DNA from: an uncultured Verrucomicrobiota bacterium
GTDB lineage: Bacteria; Verrucomicrobiota; Verrucomicrobiia; Verrucomicrobiales; DEV007
Assembly: GCA_902589825.1 (NCBI GenBank)
Contig: CACIUL010000003.1
Location: 1-64,000, forward strand
Length of the DNA: 64,000 bases
Direction of reading: 5' to 3'
Shown here: positions 5,664-29,663 of the stretch, one piece after another
Position numbering within the stretch: the stretch's first letter is position 1
Layout: each line of letters opens with the position of its first letter
Made by a program: the position numbers and the translations under genes
The notes under the pieces: model-generated
The model's database searches: none
Told to the model about the DNA's origin: nothing
What the model saw: only the letters and a program-made list of their open reading frames with translations

Positions 5664-5700
5664 TCATATGCGAGTTTTTAGTAGTTCCCAACTGATTTCG

Positions 5701-6261
5701 ATGAATACCACGCCCGCCATATCCGGATCCATAACAATGGCCCAACTCCAGGCGTCCATGCCCGGAGCCAGAAGGGCGCTTTTCATGAAGTATCATATAG
5801 GAGGCTGCCAGAGTTGCGGATTTGCAGACGATGAAACACTGGCTGAAGTCTGCCAGCGCAACGAAAACCTGCCCATTGATGAAGTCATCAACCACCTTGA
5901 AGAAAGTGCAGCGCATGATCTGGCCATTCAGGTTACCCCTGAAGAATTGAAACAAAAACTCGAGAGCAGCGCTGTTCCAAGGTTACTGGATATCCGCTCG
6001 CGCGAGGAATTTGAAGCGGTCAGAATCGATCAATCGGAATTGCTGACCCCGGAACTCCAGCAGGAAGCCTTTGGCTCATGGCAACGCGACCAGCAAGTGG
6101 TGATTATCGACCATGTTGGCGACCGTGCGCTGGATGTCGCCGCTTTCTTCATTGGTCACGGACTTGGTCAGACACATGCACTGATGGGCGGAATTGATGC
6201 CTATGCACGTGATGCAGACACTTCGCTTCCCCGTTACGAAATCGAACTTTCCAAGGACTGA
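5701..6261 (+). CDS. Cys-containing N-terminal domain fused to rhodanese-like domain lacking the catalytic Cys
   Basis: Two-domain soluble protein. The N-terminal part (from MAQLQASMPGARRALF) resembles the DUF1858/hybrid-cluster-associated disulfide domain, with IGGCQSCG and a later Cys in AEVCQ. The C-terminal part is rhodanese-like: LLDIRSREEFEAVRI is the first conserved element, but where an active rhodanese carries its Cys loop the sequence reads VVIIDHVGDRAL, with no Cys. It is therefore unlikely to be a sulfurtransferase and may be a binding or redox-sensing module. Starts at 5668, 5701 and 5737 are all possible; 5668 would leave only four bases to the divergent pssA start. The PQQ-like gene follows 33 bases later. 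Confidence 0.7.
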   Translation: MNTTPAISGSITMAQLQASMPGARRALFMKYHIGGCQSCGFADDETLAEVCQRNENLPIDEVINHLEESAAHDLAIQVTPEELKQKLESSAVPRLLDIRSREEFEAVRIDQSELLTPELQQEAFGSWQRDQQVVIIDHVGDRALDVAAFFIGHGLGQTHALMGGIDAYARDADTSLPRYEIELSKD

Positions 6262-7679: not shown

Positions 7680-8438
7680 TCAAGACAGTTCAAAACCTTC
7701 CGCCTCTACAAGGGTCGATAATGCATTCTCCATGATTAAGCGGGCACTTGCAGTCTTCCGATGCAATAATGCATGCAGCATGGCATCCTTTTCATCACGG
7801 TTGGCACATTGAAGGCAATATAATTCAAAGGCATTCAATGCCAGAAGCAGAGAAGACAAGTGTTGAGGACATTCACACTCAATACTTGTGGAGATCCGGG
7901 AAACCTTTGCTAGCAATGCATCCGAAAATTGCCGGCCTGCAATCTCTTCTTCAATATGCTCCGACAAAGGTTCCACAATTTCCTTCTCAGCAAGTTCATT
8001 AAGGGACATATTCCTGATCTCGGCCATGGCGAGATCAGCTTCACAGACAGATTTCAGGTCTGCAGCTGTAACAGGAGCACGCAGTGCGGTCAGCTTGTTG
8101 GAATGGTCTTCCATCATGGCAGTAGTTTTTTTCTGTGTAAAATGATAGACAACAATCGCACGGGCAGCACCCGCAGCCGCCGTTCTGCTTGTTATGAGAT
8201 CAATTGTATCCGGAAAAACTGTTGCGCACTGAACGATGACCAGGTCAGCACAGTGTTCATCGGCAGGCAATGCAACCCATTCATTTAGATCGGCACACTG
8301 CAGGATAATGTCGGCACGTTCACCAAATCCGGAGTCAGACTTAAGTAATTCAACGACCTGCGGACCAACCGTTATAACACGGACACCAGCCGCTCCATTG
8401 GCTGTCTGTTCAGTGGATTCTTGTTTATTGTTTTCCAT
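7680..8438 (-). CDS. Putative sensory regulator, effector portion of LitR/MerR-like proteins without HTH
   Basis: A 252-residue soluble protein without signal peptide or DNA-binding helix-turn-helix. Residues 20-135 form a predicted alternating alpha/beta domain ending in LTALRAPVTAADLKSVC. The C-terminal 65 residues (ECECPQHLSSLLLALNAFE ... AMLHALLHRKTASARLIMENAL) resemble the conserved tail of MerR-type regulators often found near photolyase or sigma-factor genes in Proteobacteria. That resemblance is from memory of the pattern, not a search. It lies downstream of a SigK-like sigma factor and a fasciclin gene on the same strand, so it may control the sigma factor or sense a cofactor or light. 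It is convergent with the PQQ-like gene. Confidence 0.5.
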   Translation of the reverse strand: MENNKQESTEQTANGAAGVRVITVGPQVVELLKSDSGFGERADIILQCADLNEWVALPADEHCADLVIVQCATVFPDTIDLITSRTAAAGAARAIVVYHFTQKKTTAMMEDHSNKLTALRAPVTAADLKSVCEADLAMAEIRNMSLNELAEKEIVEPLSEHIEEEIAGRQFSDALLAKVSRISTSIECECPQHLSSLLLALNAFELYCLQCANRDEKDAMLHALLHRKTASARLIMENALSTLVEAEGFELS

Positions 8439-8558: not shown

Positions 8559-9137
8559 TCACGTGTTGCCTTTTCTTGAAGGAATCATGCTGCGCATCTT
8601 TTCAAAGGCATAACGGATCCTGGACTTTACTGTTCCCAGGGAAATTCCTAATAACTCTGCCACCTGCATATGGGTCATGTCAGAGAAAAAAGCCAACTCA
8701 ACCACTTCACGCTGTGCGCTGGGGAGACTTTTCACCACTGACCGGAGCATTTCTGCCTGTTCCTTGGATTCCATTGCATTCACAGCTGTTTCTTTTTCCA
8801 CCGGGAAAGCATGATGACTTGCGTTTTCATCTGAGAAACCGGCTGGTATGCGCCTTTTACGGGCACGGATCTTGTCAATACAACGATTCTTCATGATTAC
8901 AGTCATCCAAGTTAGAACCTTTGCTTTTTTGCTGTCAAACTTACCTGCGTTTTTCCAGACCGACATGAAAACATCCTGCACCACTTCTTCAGCCTCTGGC
9001 ACACTATACATTATTTTTAGTGCCATTTTATAGAGGATACCTGAGGTTTTCTTATGAAGGGCATTCAAAGCCGAAGCGTCACCACCAGCAATTCTTTGCA
9101 TGAGCGTTAACTCTTCAAGGTCGGAAGGCTCATCCAT
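8559..9137 (-). CDS. ECF RNA polymerase sigma factor, SigK-like
   Basis: Sigma-70 family extracytoplasmic-function factor. Region 2 includes LYKMALKIMYSVPEAEEVVQ and VLTWMTVIMKNRCIDKIR; region 4 is SAQREVVELAFFSDMTHMQV with the recognition helix VAELLGISLGTVKSRIRYAF. There is no C-terminal extension. The ORF can be extended to a GTG at 9179, but the ATG at 9137 (MDEPSDLEELTLM) starts closer to conserved region 2 and is preferred. No anti-sigma factor with a transmembrane helix is present; the neighbouring downstream gene (7680-8438) is the only candidate partner. The upstream fasciclin gene is a common neighbour of SigK-type factors, which suggests an envelope or oxidative stress role. Confidence 0.9.
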   Translation of the reverse strand: MDEPSDLEELTLMQRIAGGDASALNALHKKTSGILYKMALKIMYSVPEAEEVVQDVFMSVWKNAGKFDSKKAKVLTWMTVIMKNRCIDKIRARKRRIPAGFSDENASHHAFPVEKETAVNAMESKEQAEMLRSVVKSLPSAQREVVELAFFSDMTHMQVAELLGISLGTVKSRIRYAFEKMRSMIPSRKGNT

Positions 9138-9231
9138 TGCCGTTAATTCATAAACAAGGAGGGCATCAAAATAAAGCACCTATTATTCCGGCTTATCCTG
9201 ATGCCCTCCAGCTACCTAGCTGAAATATTGG

Positions 9232-9999
9232 TTACTTTGTGGCAACCATGATGCGGTCAAAAGCGCTCCGGTAGGTCCAGGCATTTGATGTCATGCATTG
9301 GGACTTGGATGCACTGATGATGGCGTGCTTGAGCATCCTGCGATCCTGGGTGGAAACTGCAGATTCCGGCATAGCCATTAATGCATGCGCTGCTACTTCA
9401 TAGACAGCGGCGCATGCATGATGATTGCCATGATTGTAAAGCGGTGCGCCTTTCATAATCGCCAGACCAATAAGGTCGCGACCGGCACCGGTTTTCATGG
9501 CTTTCTTGGGGGATCTCTTTGGCGGCAGCAAAACGGCATCAATCACATGGATGATTCCGTTGCTGCATTCTATATCAGCCTTTGAGACTTTGGATTCATT
9601 CAGGAACAACGACTTACCCTTGACCGTAAGGTTGATTGTTTTCTTGTTCAGGGCTGTGGCTTTATCCAGTGTTACGGCCACTTTTGAGGGCACCTTGCCG
9701 CTTACGACATGATATGTGAGTACATCAATCAATTGCCGCTTATTCCCTGGCTTGAGTAGGTTTTCAATAGTTCCATGAGGCAATTTGGCAAAGGCTTGAT
9801 CCGTCGGAGCAAAAACAGTAAAAGGTCCGGCACCTTTCAAGGCATCAACCAAACCGGCTGATTTCAACGCGGCAGCCAGAGTCTTGAAGTTTCCAGCACC
9901 AACTGCCGTATCAATAATGTCTTTCTCTTTTGCAGAAGCAAAAGAGGCATTAATAAACAGGGACAATGCGGCAGCTGTTATCATTTTGTTAATTTTCAT
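9232..9999 (-). CDS. Secreted fasciclin-domain protein with C-terminal extension
   Basis: A 255-residue exported protein with a signal peptide (ITAAALSLFINASFASA). A single FAS1/fasciclin domain spans about residues 27-160, with the two family blocks FTVFAPTDQAFAKLP and DVLTYHVVSGKV and the closing GIIHVIDAVLLP. Residues 165-255 form an additional helical domain containing LIGLAIMKGAPLYNHGNHHACAAVYEV, with His and Cys clustered in NHHACA, reminiscent of an extension seen in other planctomycete and verrucomicrobial secreted proteins. FAS1 domains mediate adhesion or ligand binding at the cell surface. It is probably the first gene of the fasciclin-sigma-regulator cluster (gaps of 94 and about 120 bases). 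Confidence 0.85.
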   Translation of the reverse strand: MKINKMITAAALSLFINASFASAKEKDIIDTAVGAGNFKTLAAALKSAGLVDALKGAGPFTVFAPTDQAFAKLPHGTIENLLKPGNKRQLIDVLTYHVVSGKVPSKVAVTLDKATALNKKTINLTVKGKSLFLNESKVSKADIECSNGIIHVIDAVLLPPKRSPKKAMKTGAGRDLIGLAIMKGAPLYNHGNHHACAAVYEVAAHALMAMPESAVSTQDRRMLKHAIISASKSQCMTSNAWTYRSAFDRIMVATK

Positions 10000-10306
10000 A
10001 GCGAATGTGTGCCTTGTAGGTTAATCAGGTCTAATTTTGAATATGTTGTAGCTTCGTGCTGCGCATACCTTTCTTTACGCAGAGATTTCCGAGTTGGATT
10101 TAAAAGCGTGGGGAATTCCACCAATGAATAGACATCCGGTGTGCCCACTGAAATAACAGCATCTTTCCGGGCAGGTGACTCCCACATGCCATGTGCCCAA
10201 AAATGCGATATCCAGATACCGCTGTTAGGTAACCGCTTGCTTAGCGTCGAAAAAAAACACAGCGGTGACCGCCTAAACGTAAGCAATAAAATGGAAAGCC
10301 ATTAGA
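10000..10306. other. Intergenic region upstream of the fasciclin gene
   Basis: A stretch of 307 bases between the fasciclin start and the stop of the glycosidase-like gene, both on the minus strand. It should hold the promoter of the fasciclin-sigma cluster. A 96-codon minus-strand ORF (9996-10286) fills most of it but has no recognisable domain and an unusual Trp/Arg/Ser-rich composition, so it is not called. An imperfect inverted repeat (GGTAACCGC ... GCGGTGACC, 8 of 9 pairs) flanks an A8 tract near 10229-10273. On the minus strand this follows the glycosidase-like gene and could act in termination. Confidence 0.4.
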
Positions 10307-16200: not shown

Positions 16201-17351
16201 TCCTTGCCATCTGATGCTACGGGCAGCTGCCATTTCAGGCCCTGACCCGTTGCGAAGAGGGTCTTGACCCCAACCTCCTCCATCCATCGTGGCGGTGCAC
16301 CATCACGACCAATGTGCCCGATCGAATTGAATTTCCACAGCTTCTTCTGTGCCTGCTCGATTTGCGCCACCAGTCCTGAGGGATCATGCGACTCCGTCTT
16401 ACGCCATCGCTCCCGCAAGCTGCCAAGCAGCGTGTCGTCATTCGGCTTTTTCGCTGAAAGAGCCTGCCACAGCCTCAGAAAATATTTGGCATTCAGCTCA
16501 CCTTCATCTGCCACGGCTTGAATGGTTTTCGTGCCACTTTCCAGTGCCTCGCGATGCACAAGCGTCGCCGCCAGATAGCTTGCCAACGGAAGCCGTCCTC
16601 CCTGGTTCGTAGTGAACCTGATCCCGTGAAGATTTACGCCGGAACCGCCACCGTCCTCCGTGAACTGACGATAAAAGGCCTGGATGCTGGTAAGCAGCTC
16701 ATCGGTTTGATCACGTTCTGTCGTGTAAGGGGAAAACCGGATCCCTTCCGGGGTGAGCACGGCGTGGGCGGCAATCTCCTTGGCGGCATCAAGGTATTTG
16801 GTCAACAAAGCCGGTGACATGACCTGCGCAGCTCCTGTGTTCGTAAATCCCTCACCCGCTGCCCCATCGACTGGAAACTGGCGTGTCGGATCAAGGGATT
16901 CAATCCCAGTGAGATCCCGGACAGTATAGTTATACTCCGCGTTATTTAATCGCTTCAGGATAACCCTGCCGGGATCGCCCGCGCGCAAGCGCGCCTCCGC
17001 GGCAAGAAAACCCTGCACCCAGTGCTCAAGTTGTCGTCGCTGCCCAGCATCCGGTTGCTCGGATTTCCTCGGCGGCATCTGTCTGCTGGAAAGCATTTCA
17101 GCCACCTTGATCCAGACCTTTGTAGCCCGCCGGATATCGGCAACTTCCTTAAATGAATCAAGGTCGATATCGGCCTCGGAATCCTCACCTGAATGGCACT
17201 CGAAACAATATTGGCTGAGCAACGGCCTGATCTCGCTACCATATGTGCTTTCCAATGTATCCTGCTGCCCATATACAACACCCGACAGGAAGACACTGCC
17301 TGAAAGGCCCCATAACAAGACAGCATGAACGCAACAGTATCGAAAAACCAT
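13233..17351 (-). CDS. DUF1587/1592/1588/1585 planctomycete-type cytochrome protein
   Basis: A giant secreted protein of about 1372 residues. The start at 17351 (MVFRYCCVHAVLLWGLSG) gives a clean signal peptide. Order: haem-type CFECH at about 60-64 of the longer ORF, DUF1587 (LKRLNNAEYNYTVRDLTGI), a long middle segment with carbohydrate-binding-like beta regions, DUF1595 (DRAWRRPLIDSEKQGLRGLY), DUF1592 (LANRMSYFLWSSMPDAELRR), DUF1588 (SGASRTSPILRGNWVFETLL) with a second CxxCH (CAKCH), and DUF1585 (FCRKLLGYALGRESQLSD). Two CxxCH motifs support c-type haem binding. The role is unknown in the family; a periplasmic oxidoreductase linked to polysaccharide breakdown has been suggested. First gene of the DUF1592-DUF1552-propeller operon. 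Confidence 0.9.
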   Translation of the reverse strand: MVFRYCCVHAVLLWGLSGSVFLSGVVYGQQDTLESTYGSEIRPLLSQYCFECHSGEDSEADIDLDSFKEVADIRRATKVWIKVAEMLSSRQMPPRKSEQPDAGQRRQLEHWVQGFLAAEARLRAGDPGRVILKRLNNAEYNYTVRDLTGIESLDPTRQFPVDGAAGEGFTNTGAAQVMSPALLTKYLDAAKEIAAHAVLTPEGIRFSPYTTERDQTDELLTSIQAFYRQFTEDGGGSGVNLHGIRFTTNQGGRLPLASYLAATLVHREALESGTKTIQAVADEGELNAKYFLRLWQALSAKKPNDDTLLGSLRERWRKTESHDPSGLVAQIEQAQKKLWKFNSIGHIGRDGAPPRWMEEVGVKTLFATGQGLKWQLPVASDGKDTVFHLATGDAGDGNDHDYVVWKNLRLEGGGRPPLVLRDVAGLQERIDRLRLEMLGHTASYLAAARSVKTESGVAKVAAEHKVDADTLKVWLDYLGIGRSSAVRVEGHLTKKTSSRKGIAGWAATRPDSLPAVIANSSDKDERIPGLAKAHSVVVHPTPTHYAAVGWQSPIDGVVRVQASIADAHYDCGNGVEWLLQHRVAGKVGTLWKGEYDVRGSATMKPITVAIGKGELLSFLVGPREGGHTCDLTSITLIVTEVDGAKRVWNLARDVSSDLHDGNPHADSHGNEGTWHFYQGEMVKVDKGSAPIVTVPTGSILAEWLTEESEVRRSELARQVQELATGKIREDANSPDTILQRQLRTLTVPIDLPALQKDLKPGIRFGQHPLGHVVDSADLVVLAPEVIEFRVPAELARGRELVGMAELDPRHGHDGSAQVQILATKPADLDVSVNDPILIREGSQVRERMEGPVSRFRNLFPPALCYARIVPVDQVVTLTLFHREDDHLKRLMLDDRQAAELDRLWDELFYVAREPLKYQVAFEQIREFATQDRPDLVKAWAPHVNSVNGRAEAFRKRLVAVEPMHVEAVAQLADRAWRRPLIDSEKQGLRGLYGQLRESGIAHEEAIRLMIARVLTSPAFLYRKEQPAPGGKAAPVRGLELANRMSYFLWSSMPDAELRRIALAGKLADGEVVIEQARRMLKDSRIRRLAIHFACQWLHVRDFDRNDDKNERIYPEFAKLRSDMYEEIVRFFEDMFRNDGSILSLLSADHTFLNEALAKHYDIGGVSGPQWRRVEGIREKGRGGVLGMATVLASQSGASRTSPILRGNWVFETLLGERLPRPPAGVPDLPEEVPTGLTARQLIEKHSSVEACAKCHARIDPYGFALEHYDAIGRLRPQVADTRTTLPGGKEIEGLRGLRDYLAEDRREDVVRQFCRKLLGYALGRESQLSDEPLIDMIIAKLAGNGYRFSVAVEMIVNSRQFCEIRGRDNNQD

Positions 17352-28543: not shown

Positions 28544-29163
28544 TGACAAACAAAGCCGGCATCTGACTGCCATCCTGTTAAATGCCCGGCGAGAGCCTCG
28601 CGTATTGACTCGGCAGAGGCAATGACATCACTTGAAAATATCGCCTGCCACTCATCAGGTTTTTCCGGCACGAGTCCGGCAGTTCCTGATCCCATCCTCC
28701 ATTCAAGATATACATAAGCCATTGCCGCCTGTAACAAGGGCAAGCTGAAGAGTGTTGCATGAAGTGCAAATGCTGTCGTGAAGCTGCATTCCGGTCGCTT
28801 TTTGCCGAGTTGACGCAACAGGCTCATTCCCCGGCCCTCACCCCGGGCCTGGAATACAGCCGCTGCAGACAGTCGCAGCCGCTGTGCAGCCAACTCAGGG
28901 ACCTGCTTCAACAGCTTGTCATCAGCGGATATTATCTCTTCCATCTTGCCGGAGCATGAGGATTGGTAAACAAATGCAAAATGAGGCAACAGCACACTTT
29001 GAAAGCACTCTCGGTAGAATTGCTCCCATGGCTGCTCTTCAGCAAGATAGGCCAAAGCACCACGATGACGAATTCCGTGACATGCGTTCCTTATAGCACG
29101 CCACATTTCCGCCCCGTCACCGGTAATGTCTCGGTTTATAAAGTCTCCATTCACATCATGCAT
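28540..29163 (-). CDS. Unknown protein in the ybeY-clpS block
   Basis: 207 residues, not recognised. Mostly helical, no signal peptide; one moderately hydrophobic helix near 130-155 (FTTAFALHATLFSLPLLQAA). Cys residues occur at several places (NACHG, YRECF, SSCSG, PECSF, FVCQ) without a clear cluster. Its stop overlaps the clpS start by four bases (ATGA), so its translation is coupled to clpS, and it lies 59 bases after ybeY. This points to a role with ClpS or in the same regulon, but no function can be named. Confidence 0.7.
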   Translation of the reverse strand: MHDVNGDFINRDITGDGAEMWRAIRNACHGIRHRGALAYLAEEQPWEQFYRECFQSVLLPHFAFVYQSSCSGKMEEIISADDKLLKQVPELAAQRLRLSAAAVFQARGEGRGMSLLRQLGKKRPECSFTTAFALHATLFSLPLLQAAMAYVYLEWRMGSGTAGLVPEKPDEWQAIFSSDVIASAESIREALAGHLTGWQSDAGFVCQ

Positions 29164-29222
29164 ATTATCATGGGCCGAATATTATACCGATAAAGCAGGC
29201 TGTTAAAGAAAGCTACTGAACA

Positions 29223-29663
29223 TCAGGAGGACTTCTTCCAGATTGCCTCCTGAATCCTGCTCATCTCCCTAAATTCGCTCTCGGACTTGTCATTGTAACC
29301 ACCAAGGTGCAGCAGTCCATGAACCACATAAAGCAACAACTCAACCTCCGTGGAATGCCCAAGCTCCACAGCCTTCTCCTCTGCCATGCCGGCACTGACT
29401 ATAAGTTCACCGTGGTCAAAGGTAATGACATCAGTTGCCGTGGGATCATTCAAAAACCTGGCATGCACCTCGGAAATGTCCTCTGCACAGACAATACTCA
29501 CCTCAACCTGCTCCAAACTAACAAGTGGGGATTGGGCAACCGCCTTTTTGAAACACAGGGGAAGGGCTCTTTTAACCGCCTCTTCGACATATCCCATGTC
29601 AAGATGAATGGCTTCCTGGCGATTGTATAAATCAATACTTGGACCTGCAGGAACAGTGCTCAT
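29223..29663 (-). CDS. ybeY: Endoribonuclease YbeY (16S rRNA maturation)
   Basis: Zinc-dependent RNase that helps process the 3' end of 16S rRNA and ribosome quality control. 146 residues, normal length. The N-terminal ARFLNDPTATDVITFDHGE matches the family LNxxxRxxDxxTDVLSFP region. The metal motif reads HGLLHLGGYND, where the usual third His (HGxLHLxGYDH) is Asp; a similar variant is known elsewhere in the family, so activity is probably kept. The start overlaps the 7TM-HD gene stop by four bases. The order phoH, 7TM-HD, ybeY is widespread in bacteria. Confidence 0.93.
   Translation of the reverse strand: MSTVPAGPSIDLYNRQEAIHLDMGYVEEAVKRALPLCFKKAVAQSPLVSLEQVEVSIVCAEDISEVHARFLNDPTATDVITFDHGELIVSAGMAEEKAVELGHSTEVELLLYVVHGLLHLGGYNDKSESEFREMSRIQEAIWKKSS

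Follow-up and report, generated by a model that had tools for sequence, protein, structure and literature searches.

A LitR/MerR-type effector lacking its HTH is encoded with one ECF sigma factor subfamily in Verrucomicrobiales and is a possible soluble partner of that sigma factor

Two halves that are common in bacterial light responses are LitR regulators and ECF sigma factors; in the known cases LitR acts on the sigma gene at the DNA level. The Streptomyces LitR, which has a B12 chromophore, binds DNA and controls transcription of litS (PMC12705666, PMC5401885). For Burkholderia class III LitR, a C-terminus that resembles no known domain and a light-dependent absorption change are published (PMC9758184), and class III LitR reportedly requires a chromophore different from B12 (PMC6739363). 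In the CarQ-CarR pair of Myxococcus xanthus a co-expressed anti-sigma factor holds the ECF sigma factor until light acts (PMC8156234), and in PorX-SigP and RssB-RpoS the sigma factors are bound by receiver proteins that have no DNA-binding HTH (PMC4800418). Among MerR proteins, TipAS provides an example of an effector domain found apart from its HTH (PMC7762955).

The locus described here lies in a 64,000-nucleotide stretch of verrucomicrobial DNA (the window, meaning the whole stretch analysed). As the preliminary description had it, the effector gene has an ECF sigma factor gene and a fasciclin gene as neighbours, both upstream and on the same strand:

9232-9999, minus strand: first gene of the operon, encoding an exported-looking fasciclin-domain protein (Pfam PF02469, E 2.3e-37)
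8559-9137, minus strand: ECF sigma factor gene, with Pfam sigma regions 2 and 4 and a subfamily of its own
7680-8438, minus strand: LitR/MerR-type effector gene without HTH, identified from the ORF, an AlphaFold2 model, Foldseek and invariant residues

The effector gene has an ATG start and encodes 252 aa, with a C-terminal tail reading CECPQHL...HALLHR...AR...E; the product is predicted to be soluble (pI 4.7, no membrane segment). Homologues are present in 52 of 142 relative genomes (Verrucomicrobiales), and relatives are encoded by 339 stretches among 84,980 species genomes searched. The ORF is real and conserved and is under purifying selection, with a dN/dS of 0.09-0.14 against the nearest orthologue, similar to that of the sigma gene, and 16 residues invariant across all 57 aligned sequences, HTH-bearing and HTH-less. 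The missing family-defining domain might suggest a decaying remnant of a regulator, but the selection and conservation data contradict this reading, the gene being intact in several genera with all of the tail invariants retained, and we find it hardly credible. Elsewhere in the window, the 197-aa product of positions 5668-6261 contains a rhodanese domain, and its N-terminus is very weakly ScdA_N-like.

In the AlphaFold2 model of the effector (mean pLDDT 88) a disordered N-terminus (residues 1-18) leads into a receiver-like domain of five strands (19-124). This is followed by a long helix (125-152), then by a loop and finally by a Cys/His tail (171-249), which is helical and in which residues 190-210 and 216-247 form a hairpin. 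Two segments of the gene are of particular concern below:

7983-8066, minus strand: helix 125-152, with the clade-specific motif LKxxCEADLAxAxIR, a candidate partner interface from its clade-specific conservation
7692-7877, minus strand: tail residues 188-249, CECPQHL...C211...H222...R233...E237, invariant in 57 of 57 sequences

Profile searches of the protein found no HTH, no Pfam match above cut-off and no NCBIfam match, and a B12-binding domain is absent from these searches both for the effector and for its HTH-bearing relatives. Residues 19-124 match receiver domains, not B12-binding domains, by Foldseek (target TM about 0.7) and by profile searches, and PorX is among the Foldseek matches to this part. 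The earlier suggestion of a B12-type effector domain of the LitR/CarH kind thus is not supported, the middle being receiver-like and the kin apparently being the B12-independent class III proteins. When the sequence is read against the CheY pattern, the phospho-acceptor Asp is absent (Gln70 in the effector, Glu in most relatives), as is the receiver acidic pair following strand 1, so that canonical phosphorylation of the receiver-like domain appears unlikely; no kinase gene was seen beside the effector. In the tail, Cys188, Glu189, Cys190, Glu205, Tyr207, Cys211, Asp218, His222, Arg233, Glu237 and Glu247 are invariant in 57 of 57 sequences, and the tail probably holds a putative metal, thiol or chromophore site. 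The C-terminal domain folded alone has no significant relative among solved structures.

The HTH-bearing homologues are mostly 320-380 aa in length and have an N-terminal HTH, a receiver-like middle and a CECP(Q/H)HL...C...H tail. Their HTH matches MerR_1 (E 1e-13 to 4e-18), and its closest solved structures are CarA and CarH. That the tail resembles those of MerR regulators, as first noted from the letters, is therefore borne out by proteins that join a true MerR_1 HTH to this middle and tail. The profile check suggested for the C-terminus did not go against the proposal: MerR-family kinship is found via the homologues, although no curated MerR effector-domain profile matches. By alignment and tree the effector half is homologous to that of MerR regulators, and the N-terminal MerR-type HTH of the family is absent. 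The window protein and 11 others start downstream of the HTH and linker in the alignment, and in a tree made without the HTH region these HTH-less rows form one clade (UFBoot/SH-aLRT 97/91) whose sister is a pair of HTH-bearing proteins. One loss accounts for all 12, and the HTH thus appears to have been lost once, in a single verrucomicrobial clade. The possibilities that the HTH is encoded in another frame or that the gene is split were considered and rejected, the 120 bp gap to the sigma gene being too short.

Nor was a MerR_1 domain found anywhere in the window's own genome (draft, 81% complete), or in eight of the nine other HTH-less genomes; those searched are drafts, 54-91% complete. 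With the HTH-free protein and the short gap, this upholds the earlier statement that the DNA-binding half is gone. The same searches bear on a reading in which the effector forms mixed oligomers with a DNA-bound MerR/LitR partner and serves as an antirepressor or dominant negative. The effector does retain all of a LitR-type protein except its DNA-binding half, and antirepression of MerR proteins is known from CarS-CarA (PMC8156234) and PmSB-LOV-PmlR2 (PMC9758184), but a MerR_1 partner is missing from nearly all of these draft genomes and we consider mixed oligomers very unlikely.

We infer that the effector's family is, or includes, class III LitR, the comparison being made via a homologue in Burkholderia anthina (E 5e-33). 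This protein has the same receiver-like middle and a CECPxHL...C...H tail, with the tail invariants common to both except Arg233, and its cluster contains cfa, GTP cyclohydrolase (folE), ECF sigma, photolyase and fasciclin genes. Sumi et al. in 2018 reportedly described folE2, cfaB, litS, phrB2 and cryB beside litR in B. multivorans. The window effector differs from the B. anthina arrangement in having no HTH and in being co-directional with its sigma gene. Among the other relatives, a 24-row clade of HTH-bearing proteins is mostly divergent from another ECF sigma gene, with some members near phytoene desaturase or phytoene synthase genes, and further relatives adjoin FeS-type photolyase genes. 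The photolyase, carotenoid and LitR-type clusters around family members agree with the light context proposed in the preliminary description.

Conservation of the helix differs between the two classes. Within the HTH-less clade, mean pairwise identity is higher in helix 125-150 than in the receiver domain (0.56 vs 0.40, or 0.51 vs 0.36 with about one row per genus), whereas in each of the three HTH-bearing groups compared the helix is the less conserved of the two (0.45 vs 0.52, 0.35 vs 0.41 and 0.37 vs 0.44). The constraint apparently gained in the HTH-less clade looks like a new partner interface, and we regard the helix as a candidate for one.

The sigma factor has clear Pfam matches (Sigma70_r2, E 8.6e-16; r4, E 2e-14). 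Its start is likely the ATG at 9137, with which the sigma starts of relatives align, and the GTG at 9179, which would give a longer product, is a less likely start. The label 'SigK-like' stands in that SigK is the best subfamily match and fails in that the score is below the model cut-off (129 vs 226 bits). Adjacency in relatives, on which the preliminary description had staked its proposal, held: the same sigma subfamily accompanies the effector, and the sigma gene is 23-120 bp upstream on the same strand in 10 of the 12 HTH-less loci. There are departures of two types. At one locus (L064) the fasciclin-sigma operon is divergent from the effector, and in one genome (G017) it is on another contig, unlinked to the effector. 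The sigmas of the HTH-less loci split from all other ECFs in the tree with a branch support of 100/100. We also considered whether this sigma is the same as the one divergent from HTH-bearing relatives, but the sigma tree separates the two groups, and the regulator family therefore seems to have been joined to ECF sigmas on more than one occasion. Between effectors and sigmas, identities correlate (r 0.89), as common descent alone would make them do.

None of the neighbouring genes tested by profile search gave an anti-sigma match, and no RskA was found beside the sigma gene. The effector itself is without a recognised anti-sigma domain, having no zf-HC2/RskA profile match and no ASD fold among its structural matches. 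Two other ECF genes of the genome adjoin weak zinc-finger anti-sigma-like stretches that score below the family cut-off:

G000 C57, about 16529-17163: ECF sigma-like gene with a zf-HC2-like stretch beside it
G000 C12, about 28734-29329: ECF sigma-like gene with a zf-HC2-like stretch beside it

In several genus-g16 genomes a PLD-like gene and a TPR gene are convergent to the sigma-effector operon (L032 6436-8199, L033 1546-3290).

The order fasciclin-sigma-effector is the same in L055, L058 and L065. Genomes either have all of effector, sigma and fasciclin or have none of the three, and photolyase largely follows them. In a comparison of 14 genomes, fasciclin is present in 10 of 10 with effector and sigma and in none of the four related genomes (84-94% complete) without them, and a FAD_binding_7 photolyase match is present in 8 of 10 and none of four, respectively; this contrast recurs in two genera. 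A photolyase match was not found in the window's own genome (81% complete). In five genus-g16 loci (L174, L175, L176, L177 and L179) a FAD_binding_7 photolyase-type gene adjoins a DPRP/FeS-type photolyase gene, partly in divergent orientation.

Such linkage could also arise if the effector served the same photo-oxidative response and made no contact with the sigma factor, as a light, metal or redox sensor or a scavenger acting on some other protein. Co-regulation alone would explain a shared operon, effector and sigma are unlinked in G017, and the invariant Cys/His tail is common to the HTH forms whatever sigma they have. However, the exclusive pairing with one sigma subfamily and the class-specific constraint on helix 125-150 are not what this reading would lead one to expect, and we consider it improbable.

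A conserved motif upstream of the fasciclin gene offers a view of the putative target:

10075-10105, minus strand: ECF-type promoter motif TTTTAAATCC-N16-CGTAA at the head of the fasciclin-sigma-effector operon and conserved in relatives

The general form TTT(T/C)(A/G)(A/G)ATCC-N16-CGT recurs with constant spacing before the fasciclin genes of genomes from several genera. Per 300 bp, 0.005 occurrences of its core, ATCC-N15-GCGT, are expected, and seven fasciclin upstream regions contain it. The window site, which was within the motif's training set, is the top score in the window (21.6 vs 14.3 for the next best). Untrained fasciclin upstream regions of L093, L094 and L096 score 14.8 (null 95% 10.2, 99% 15.4), and the motif is missing from six other untrained fasciclin upstream regions of the L093/L094/L096 group. 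Where fasciclin and sigma are unlinked the motif remains with fasciclin, which fits fasciclin being a target in trans. The motif would presumably be read by the partner ECF sigma. ATCC-N16-CGT was looked for upstream of the stand-alone sigma genes and of the photolyase genes as well, and did not turn up there. A promoter of the singlet-oxygen type (TGATC-N-TAAGT) was also searched for, with almost no matches. We note that a segment of about 200 bp that lies just upstream of the fasciclin promoter and takes it in (window 10070-10285, minus strand) is conserved, being about 79% identical to L055 over the aligned region and contains inverted repeats (folding z-score -1.8); it has no credible Rfam match, nor does Rfam give a match at gathering level over the whole window, and the segment could be a small RNA or a regulatory region.

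LitR-type descent, the absence of DNA-binding, co-encoding with the sigma factor and purifying selection together argue that the effector most likely acts on the sigma factor, and suggest a change from acting on DNA to direct control of the sigma protein, presumably through contact. A soluble regulator of the sigma factor, as first proposed, is thus plausible. Anti-sigma genes usually sit after the sigma gene in ECF operons, as the effector gene does here, and no other anti-sigma is recognised alongside; for these reasons we favour an anti-sigma role. We therefore give nearly an even chance to the reading in which a MerR/LitR-type photo-response regulator has been kept in HTH-less form as a soluble inhibitory partner of one ECF sigma. 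We are more tentative about the fuller proposal of a B12-independent photosensory module of LitR type turned into a soluble, light- or redox-gated anti-sigma that senses through its Cys/His tail, which we see as possible. In such a scheme the module, deprived of DNA-binding, would act by protein contact, with the newly conserved helix 125-150 as the probable binding site for the sigma, and in darkness or without stress it would keep the sigma inactive. The Cys/His tail would sense light (UV-A or blue) or photo-oxidative stress, the conformation or oligomeric state of the effector would be altered, and the freed sigma would transcribe fasciclin, its own operon and other targets. Points against an anti-sigma role are the lack of a recognised anti-sigma domain, the unlinked genes in G017, the lack of the motif before stand-alone sigma and photolyase genes, and the lack of a photolyase match in the window's own genome.

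A positive partner would show such linkage and co-evolution too, as would membership of one pathway in which the two proteins do not touch. The main rival to the anti-sigma role is that the effector binds the sigma as a positive partner of the PorX-SigP type, or as a degradation adaptor of the RssB-RpoS type. The receiver-like fold with PorX among its matches is consistent with this, the linkage and co-inheritance evidence would be identical, and PorX binds SigP directly, SigP being lacking without PorX (PMC4800418). However, the effector has neither the phospho-acceptor Asp nor a kinase gene seen beside it, and its gene position after the sigma gene is more usual for an anti-sigma; a positive or adaptor role seems unlikely, though a little less so than action without sigma contact.

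If the anti-sigma reading is correct, the locus is a natural case of a transcription factor becoming a protein-level regulator of a sigma factor. It would also make available a B12-independent LitR-type sensor module in HTH-free, probably soluble form, with its invariant residues named. The ingredients are known, but an HTH-less LitR-type module fixed as an ECF sigma partner was not met in the literature searched, most subscription journals lying outside that search. The pairing of a LitR-type regulator with an ECF sigma resembles LitR-LitS, which serves a light response in Streptomyces, although the effector here has neither the HTH nor the B12 domain. CarR is a six-helix membrane protein with no kinship to the effector, and the locus departs from SigK-RskA in that the sigma is below the SigK cut-off and has no anti-sigma match beside it. 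TipAS, which binds antibiotics, is the product of an alternative start in a gene that keeps its HTH, whereas the effector gene here has lost it. PorX and RssB share with the effector the character of receiver-domain proteins without HTH, with sigma contact only presumed for the effector, and they differ from it in that their receivers can be phosphorylated, their C-terminal domains are different and the outcome is not anti-sigma sequestration.
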